Below are positions 6,437 through 6,525 of a stretch of DNA of 20,027 nt, piece after piece; positions within the stretch are counted from its first letter, which is position 1; each line of letters opens with the position of its first letter. Position numbers and translations under genes: made by a program. The notes beneath the pieces were generated by a model. The model was not told the origin of the DNA. It saw nothing but the letters and a program-made list of their open reading frames with translations, and ran no database searches. The stretch is from the IMG/VR virus record IMGVR_UViG_3300005584_000058, positions 1 through 20,027 of that record, one strand, 5' to 3'. The stretch comes from a virus.

Positions 6437-6525
6437 TGATAGTCAAGGGAATCGAACCCCTGCTTAACTTCTGATCAAGTCTGTATGTCCGATCAGGGAC
6501 ACCACATTCAGTCACCAGAACTACC
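6437..6525 (-). tRNA. Aberrant tRNA-like element, identity unresolved
   Basis: 89 nt from 6525 within the tRNA array. Acceptor halves GGTAGTT (6519-6525) and GACTATC (6438-6444) pair with two wobbles, and a canonical T-arm (6445-6461, GGTTCGATTCC) is present. Between them the fold is abnormal: a perfect 5-bp anticodon-like stem TGTCC/GGACA closes a 6-nt loop CTGATC, and a second hairpin GACTT/AAGTT closes GATCAG. No proper D-stem is found, and no CCA is encoded, unlike its neighbours. If the first hairpin is the anticodon arm, the size fits a class II tRNA and T33 would be followed by GAT; but isoleucine tRNAs are class I. It may be a decayed tRNA or a tRNA mimic. Confidence 0.6.

Follow-up and report, generated by a model that had tools for sequence, protein, structure and literature searches.

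A tRNA-like RNA with mutually complementary hairpin loops in a phage tRNA array is built like bacteriophage T4 rnaC

Introduction

The tRNA cluster of bacteriophage T4 contains two small stable RNAs, rnaC ("species 1 RNA") and rnaD, whose biological role is recorded as unknown (PMC3014915). A Northern blot has shown T4 RNAC in vivo, and this RNA was assigned to the late class (PMC9697503). It is absent from Rfam. Among tRNA-like structures of another kind, the tRNA-like domain of tmRNA has an acceptor and a T-arm without a D-stem or an anticodon arm. Here, we describe an element located in a packed tRNA array on the minus strand of a 20,027-bp IMG/VR record (the whole stretch of DNA that was analysed, hereafter the window), and compare it with these RNAs.

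Results

The element (positions 6438 to 6525, minus strand) is a predicted 88-nt tRNA-like RNA with a kissing-loop middle, delimited by ARAGORN, by comparison with homologues and by a positional check of the sequence. It is preceded at a distance of 7 nt by tRNA-Thr (TGT; 6533 to 6608) and followed after 5 nt by tRNA-Asn (GTT; 6358 to 6432), both on the minus strand and both recognised by ARAGORN and by the Rfam tRNA model. The 5′ strand of the acceptor stem, GGTAGTT (6519 to 6525), forms seven pairs, two of them G-U, with the 3′ strand, GACTATC (6438 to 6444), next to which stands a discriminator A (6437). The 5′ acceptor strand is followed by an unpaired stretch with the motif CTGGT, the GG of which occupies positions 6515 to 6516, then by hairpin 1 (strands TGTCC, 6497 to 6501, and GGACA, 6486 to 6490), a 4-nt linker, hairpin 2 (GACTT, 6477 to 6481, and AAGTT, 6466 to 6470), and a T-arm, AGGGG-TTCGATT-CCCTT (6445 to 6461), with a canonical tRNA T-loop. 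Loop 1, CTGATC (6491 to 6496), and loop 2, GATCAG (6471 to 6476), are exact reverse complements. There is no D-stem in the consensus fold. All ten confident tRNAs of the window encode CCA, which is absent from the element, where ATTATTCC comes next. A sequence-only reading of this DNA had described the same boundaries, the tRNA-like acceptor and T-arm, and two hairpins with complementary 6-nt loops; this description is correct and applies to the minus strand, and its further remarks, that the element lacks a D-arm and CCA while ten tRNAs encode the latter, are borne out by the fold and by the sequence ends. Just downstream of this segment of the array, positions 5482 to 6144 encode a QueC-like protein (phrog_1550, 2.3e-9).

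ARAGORN called the element "tRNA-???" (6436 to 6526), with a two-nucleotide anticodon ("ga"). When the window was scanned with the Rfam tRNA model (RF00005), no match to the element was obtained at E ≤ 1; the other ten tRNAs scored 55–71 bits. A 7-nt anticodon loop is absent: the loop of the element is 6 nt long (8 nt in a diverged homologue, L148, see below) and is paired with loop 2. Like type-II tRNAs (Ser/Leu/Tyr), the element has an acceptor, a T-arm and a hairpin directly before the T-arm; unlike them, it has no D-stem, 7-nt anticodon loop or CCA, and the loops of its "anticodon" and "variable" hairpins pair with each other. A permissive Rfam search with the element alone gave nothing near any cut-off, and no Rfam family matches it. 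Models of tmRNA reached a sub-threshold 10–12 bits over the T-arm, against cut-offs of 70–84, and ARAGORN found no tmRNA. The element shares the acceptor/T-arm and the missing D-stem with the tRNA-like domain of tmRNA, but has no tag reading frame and no CCA, and is only 88 nt long. The best sub-threshold Rfam match in another homologue, L083, was to mascRNA (the MALAT1 tRNA-like small RNA), a non-decoding tRNA-like RNA; the score of 20.9 bits is far under the gathering cut-off of 42.5, mascRNA is eukaryotic, and its family model has no kissing loops.

Homologues were obtained with a DNA pattern combining both complementary loops and the T-arm, which retrieved the element from contigs L083, L084 and L090, and with a second DNA pattern, which retrieved the more diverged L148. 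These four further IMG/VR contigs provide three distinct sequences, since L084 and L090 carry an identical element, in the same Thr-element-Asn order as the window; the family thus comprises four distinct sequences including that of the window, all of them metagenomic. The elements of the window and L084 are 97.7% identical, while the five true tRNAs shared by the two contigs are 73–91% identical. The L083 element is 92% identical to that of the window, and one tRNA-Ser is the only other part that can be aligned as DNA; L083, which bears T4-like replication genes (as judged from open reading frames), has almost no other DNA in common with the window. Conservation at this level, together with the compensatory changes described below, shows the element, as judged from the alignment, to be under purifying selection.

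A covariance model of the element family scored its members at 93–111 bits and everything else, ordinary tRNA genes included, at 33 bits or less. When 24 records and 65 loci were searched with a covariance model, no additional member came to light. Phage isolates (INPHARED) yielded T-arm matches and no element, a loose DNA pattern in which both loops were left free returned only the known members and chance matches in coding sequence, and close relatives sought through neighbouring proteins were not found. RNR relatives are mostly without the element, and other RNAs fill their Thr-Asn slot. Covariance searching and alignment with related phages had both been proposed in the sequence-only reading as checks: the tRNA model fails to match the element while the element-specific model separates members from tRNAs, and in the alignment the stems are conserved and compensatory changes are present.

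Over the four distinct sequences, 96.4% of cells are paired in the full structure, which consists of the acceptor, both hairpins, the helix between the loops and the T-arm. Four of its pairs are changed on both sides; two of these belong to the acceptor, and hairpin 1 and the loop-loop helix contribute one each. Control structures, slid along the alignment, were 30–49% paired, with zero to two double-change pairs. In the loop-loop helix and the T-arm, cells are 100% paired. The loops CTGATC/GATCAG become CTGAAC/GTTCAG in L148, a compensatory double change. In hairpin 1, a U-A pair is replaced by C-G in L083, and consistent changes are seen in L084 and L148; hairpin 2 is kept unchanged in all homologues and is therefore neutral as covariation evidence. 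The motif CTGGT, and with it the GG, is the same in every homologue. Unguided RNAalifold independently returned the same acceptor, both hairpins and the T-arm, and the 3′ acceptor strand is also placed by the positional check of the sequence. Plain MFE folding favours another middle, but the competing fold based on it is less supported by the homologues: its helix 20-23/41-44 is paired in 69% of cells, and its helix 8-12/51-55 has no compensatory change.

The compensatory change in L148, taken with covariation across the structure, indicates that the loops pair, that the RNA is constrained and, therefore, that the complementarity is functional. Comparative analysis thus shows a predicted RNA with a terminal acceptor stem and T-arm; it lacks a D-stem and has two internal hairpins, the 6-nt loops of which are paired with one another. 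Conservation with compensatory change in L148 is the strongest comparative evidence for the reality of the element; within the element family, loop-loop pairing rests on this one compensatory change (two more are found in rnaC). With no more than 4 nt linking the two hairpins, a 6-bp kiss inside one molecule would be under strain, and it is possible that the loops instead meet in a dimer or in alternating pairing.

The arrangement exceeds chance expectation. When ca. 3.8 Mb (strands summed) were scanned for a T-arm, a hairpin, and a second hairpin upstream whose 6-nt loop is exactly complementary to that of the first, matches were obtained to the element with its relatives, to T4 rnaC with its homologues, and at six other, scattered sites. 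The same scan on one mononucleotide shuffle gave zero matches, and scanning four additional phage tRNA arrays (Milchi, S13, Vibrio 1.081.O and DSS3P8) added no convincing case.

T4 rnaC has a canonical T-arm at its end, and its internal hairpin loops, TTGACG and CGTCAA, are exact reverse complements. In a comparison of 16 homologues, the loop pairing was kept in every one, with all six loop-loop pairs 100% paired; the loops change in step, Yersinia phage TG1 having TTGATG/CATCAA and three Klebsiella phages TTGGCG/CGCCAA. Across the entire structure, double changes occur in 18 of 33 pairs in these 16 sequences, and the covariation score was reached by none of 500 shuffles. Two U-U mismatches in the rnaC acceptor are U-A and C-G in TG1, and the GG after the 5′ acceptor strand is invariant. 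No published description of the rnaC loop pairing was found in the open literature, older T4 papers being outside the scope of the search, and we do not claim novelty for it.

In predicted structure, the closest known thing to the element is T4 rnaC, a parallel that the sequence-only reading had not drawn. Both the element and rnaC (homologues in Straboviridae and Marfavirus) have 7-nt acceptor-like ends, an invariant GG just after the 5′ acceptor strand, no D-stem, and two hairpins whose 6-nt loops are exactly complementary and covary, the second hairpin standing 1–4 nt ahead of a canonical T-arm; neither encodes CCA, and both are located in a phage tRNA cluster (in the case of rnaC, that of T4-like phages). 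Unlike the element, rnaC is ca. 137 nt long, has its hairpin 1 capping a long arm, and has other loop letters. A covariance model of rnaC gave no match on the element, and the model of the element matched rnaC only by the T-arm (5 bits). Because neither model retrieves the other, kinship of the two RNAs is unproven, and the element can be described only as built like rnaC.

The setting of the element is unusual, in that the corresponding slot of related arrays is filled by several further structured RNAs that lack annotation. One of these, which we call module Y, is an RNA of ca. 84 nt that is often located in the Thr-Asn slot held by the element in the window (L002:11829-11912, L003:10564-10647, L006:10052-10135, L007:12558-12640, L119:7486-7568, L120:6809-6891, L127:9306-9390 and L135:4643-4725). 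RNAalifold gives it 28 pairs, 8 of which are changed on both sides; the L002 copy, which was checked, has no Rfam match. The same arrays also contain a conserved module X (AAGCAGTACCGTCTGCTGAACC...) and a conserved module Z (TTATCCAGTATTCTAGA...) (L002:11626-11830, L007:12700-12830, L148:5430-5310). The position of X relative to tRNA-Asn varies among phages, and Z comes after the element in L148; neither module is more similar to LSU or 5S rRNA than expected by chance. Differing structured-looking RNAs adjoin tRNA-Thr at L118:7424-7515 (with a T-arm-like hairpin close to the 5′ end), L130:536-621 (apparently tRNA-ended, with CCA encoded) and L138:7110-7200. Downstream of the element, L083 (10865-11006) and L148 (5135-5015) have in common a block of ca. 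140 nt (TGTGGTAAGGAAAG...CTGCCACA), apparently a structured RNA, and a manA RNA (RF01745) adjoins a phage tRNA array at L118:11501-11675. Cronobacter phage S13 (L234:16146-16388) and Vibrio phage 1.081.O (L235:4928-5413) contain 113–121 nt tRNA genes, annotated as tRNA-OTHER, Ser or Asn, with a similar hairpin insert (ACGCAAACTGACAAGTTTGTATTCAGC-like); the inserts are possibly small tRNA introns.

Discussion

We consider it likely, with a probability of about 0.7, that the element is a functional non-coding and non-decoding tRNA-like RNA on the building plan of rnaC, presumably processed like a tRNA and locked by a kissing-loop helix. RNase P and tRNA 3′ nucleases would excise it from the array transcript, because the acceptor/T-arm stack is what these enzymes recognise. 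The conserved GG would dock on the T-loop in the manner of tRNA G18G19, creating a tRNA elbow, and the loop-loop helix would clamp the body shut; an RNA clamped in this way would therefore be compact, nuclease-resistant and unable to decode. It would then act via a protein that recognises the elbow or the acceptor. As the likeliest mode of action, we tentatively suggest that the element, in the role of decoy or regulator, may occupy a host protein that binds these parts of tRNA (a defence factor directed against tRNA, an elongation factor, or processing or modifying enzymes).

The sequence-only reading had left a choice between a decayed tRNA and a tRNA mimic doing something else, for instance a possible decoy for a host nuclease or synthetase. 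If the element were a type-II tRNA drifting towards loss and kept only by hitchhiking in the array, its tRNA-like ends, the absence of CCA, the position of hairpin 2 at the place of a long variable arm, and a weak covariance-model similarity to phage tRNA-Ser would all be accounted for; the last of these stems from the acceptor and T-arm that the element has in common with tRNA. Such a relic is nonetheless very improbable, since compensatory changes are present, conservation is above that of true tRNAs, and the element occurs in distant phages at differing array positions. No homologue is an ordinary tRNA, and the element is not diverging freely. On this comparative evidence, the element is not a decayed tRNA, and it is the mimic that the homologues favour: they keep the non-tRNA middle, with compensatory changes, and are conserved above the adjacent true tRNAs. 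That the element is an unusual working tRNA with a 6-nt anticodon loop (the "ga" of ARAGORN; GAU-like) is barely credible: ARAGORN still makes a call, but there is no D-stem, 7-nt loop or CCA, the tRNA model fails to match, and loop 1 is occupied by loop 2, the letters of both changing together. About as improbable as a decaying tRNA is a mimic of 5S rRNA, or a 5S/tRNA fusion, whose middle would copy the 5′ half of 5S (CUGGUGAC...CUGAUC...UCAGAAGUUAAGC) to bind ribosomal proteins. Many 5S genes do have three short blocks in the same order as the element: a three-block pattern derived from it matched 24 bacterial genomes with the same 55–57 nt span, all 18 scanned of these 24 place the match in the 5′ half of the 5S gene, and local alignment to four 5S references gave shuffle-test p values of about 0.002–0.004 for the window and L083, uncorrected for the number of comparable families. 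The resemblance fades in the diverged L148 (p about 0.1), where the blocks are lost and CAGAAGTTAAGC alone is kept, and since the pattern that retrieved L148 required AGAAGTTAAG, the retained segment is the search segment. Furthermore, RF00001 fails to match the element even when the threshold is relaxed to E ≤ 10 and has no match in the L083, L084, L090 and L148 records, the pairing supported for the element is different from that of 5S, and hairpin 1, which is backed by covariation, is absent from 5S. The 5S chimera was dropped, given a mild, uncorrected p that is gone in L148; the resemblance is probably accidental.

Two further alternatives concern what the paired loops do and what the RNA is for. 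It had been proposed from the sequence that the loops could kiss or swap to a different stem; that the loops pair is upheld by the compensation in L148, and a swap to an 8-bp CTGATCGG/TTGATCAG helix is formally possible and not favoured. In a conformational switch, the complementary segments would form one 8-bp hairpin (CUGAUCGG/UUGAUCAG) that excludes both small hairpins, and the RNA would alternate between the folds. The energies are close (−7.5 kcal/mol for the alternative helix versus −6.7 to −11.0 kcal/mol for the two hairpins), the double change in L148 supports pairing without fixing its geometry, and the 4-nt linker strains an intramolecular kiss. We nevertheless regard a switch as quite unlikely, because L148 loses the two G-U pairs that extend the 8-bp helix, hairpin 1 carries a compensatory change of its own, and in rnaC the hairpin stems and the loop pairing covary within the same molecules, which fits simultaneous formation. 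A narrower version of the decoy function, in which a mimic of the tRNA elbow and acceptor without a cleavable anticodon would titrate a host tRNA nuclease, toxin or modifying effector as a counter-defence, seems unlikely, if less so than a switch. Anticodon nucleases recognise mainly the anticodon loop, and this main target is absent from the element; no defence context was found within the window. In favour of such a decoy, phage tRNAs have been proposed to counter tRNA-targeting host defences (PMC10264068), and the shape of the element would suit that role.

The non-decoding, kissing-loop RNA that we prefer represents a second, far shorter RNA family on the plan of rnaC, present in uncultured phages, with compensated loop pairing in both families. 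It also illustrates that conserved RNAs other than tRNAs can be concealed behind calls of "tRNA-???" or "pseudo-tRNA" in phage arrays. For T4 rnaC, an RNA known for decades, the shared plan supplies a structural hypothesis, and this hypothesis is directly testable in T4, where genetics is easy. It is conceivable, though doubtful, that kissing-loop tRNA mimics form a general class of phage-encoded RNAs, with T4 RNA C, the element, and perhaps more as members. Such RNAs would present a tRNA elbow that lacks an anticodon and would act in trans, either on the host tRNA machinery or on tRNA-targeting defences. If true, this would assign a function to T4 RNA C, which has long gone unexplained.
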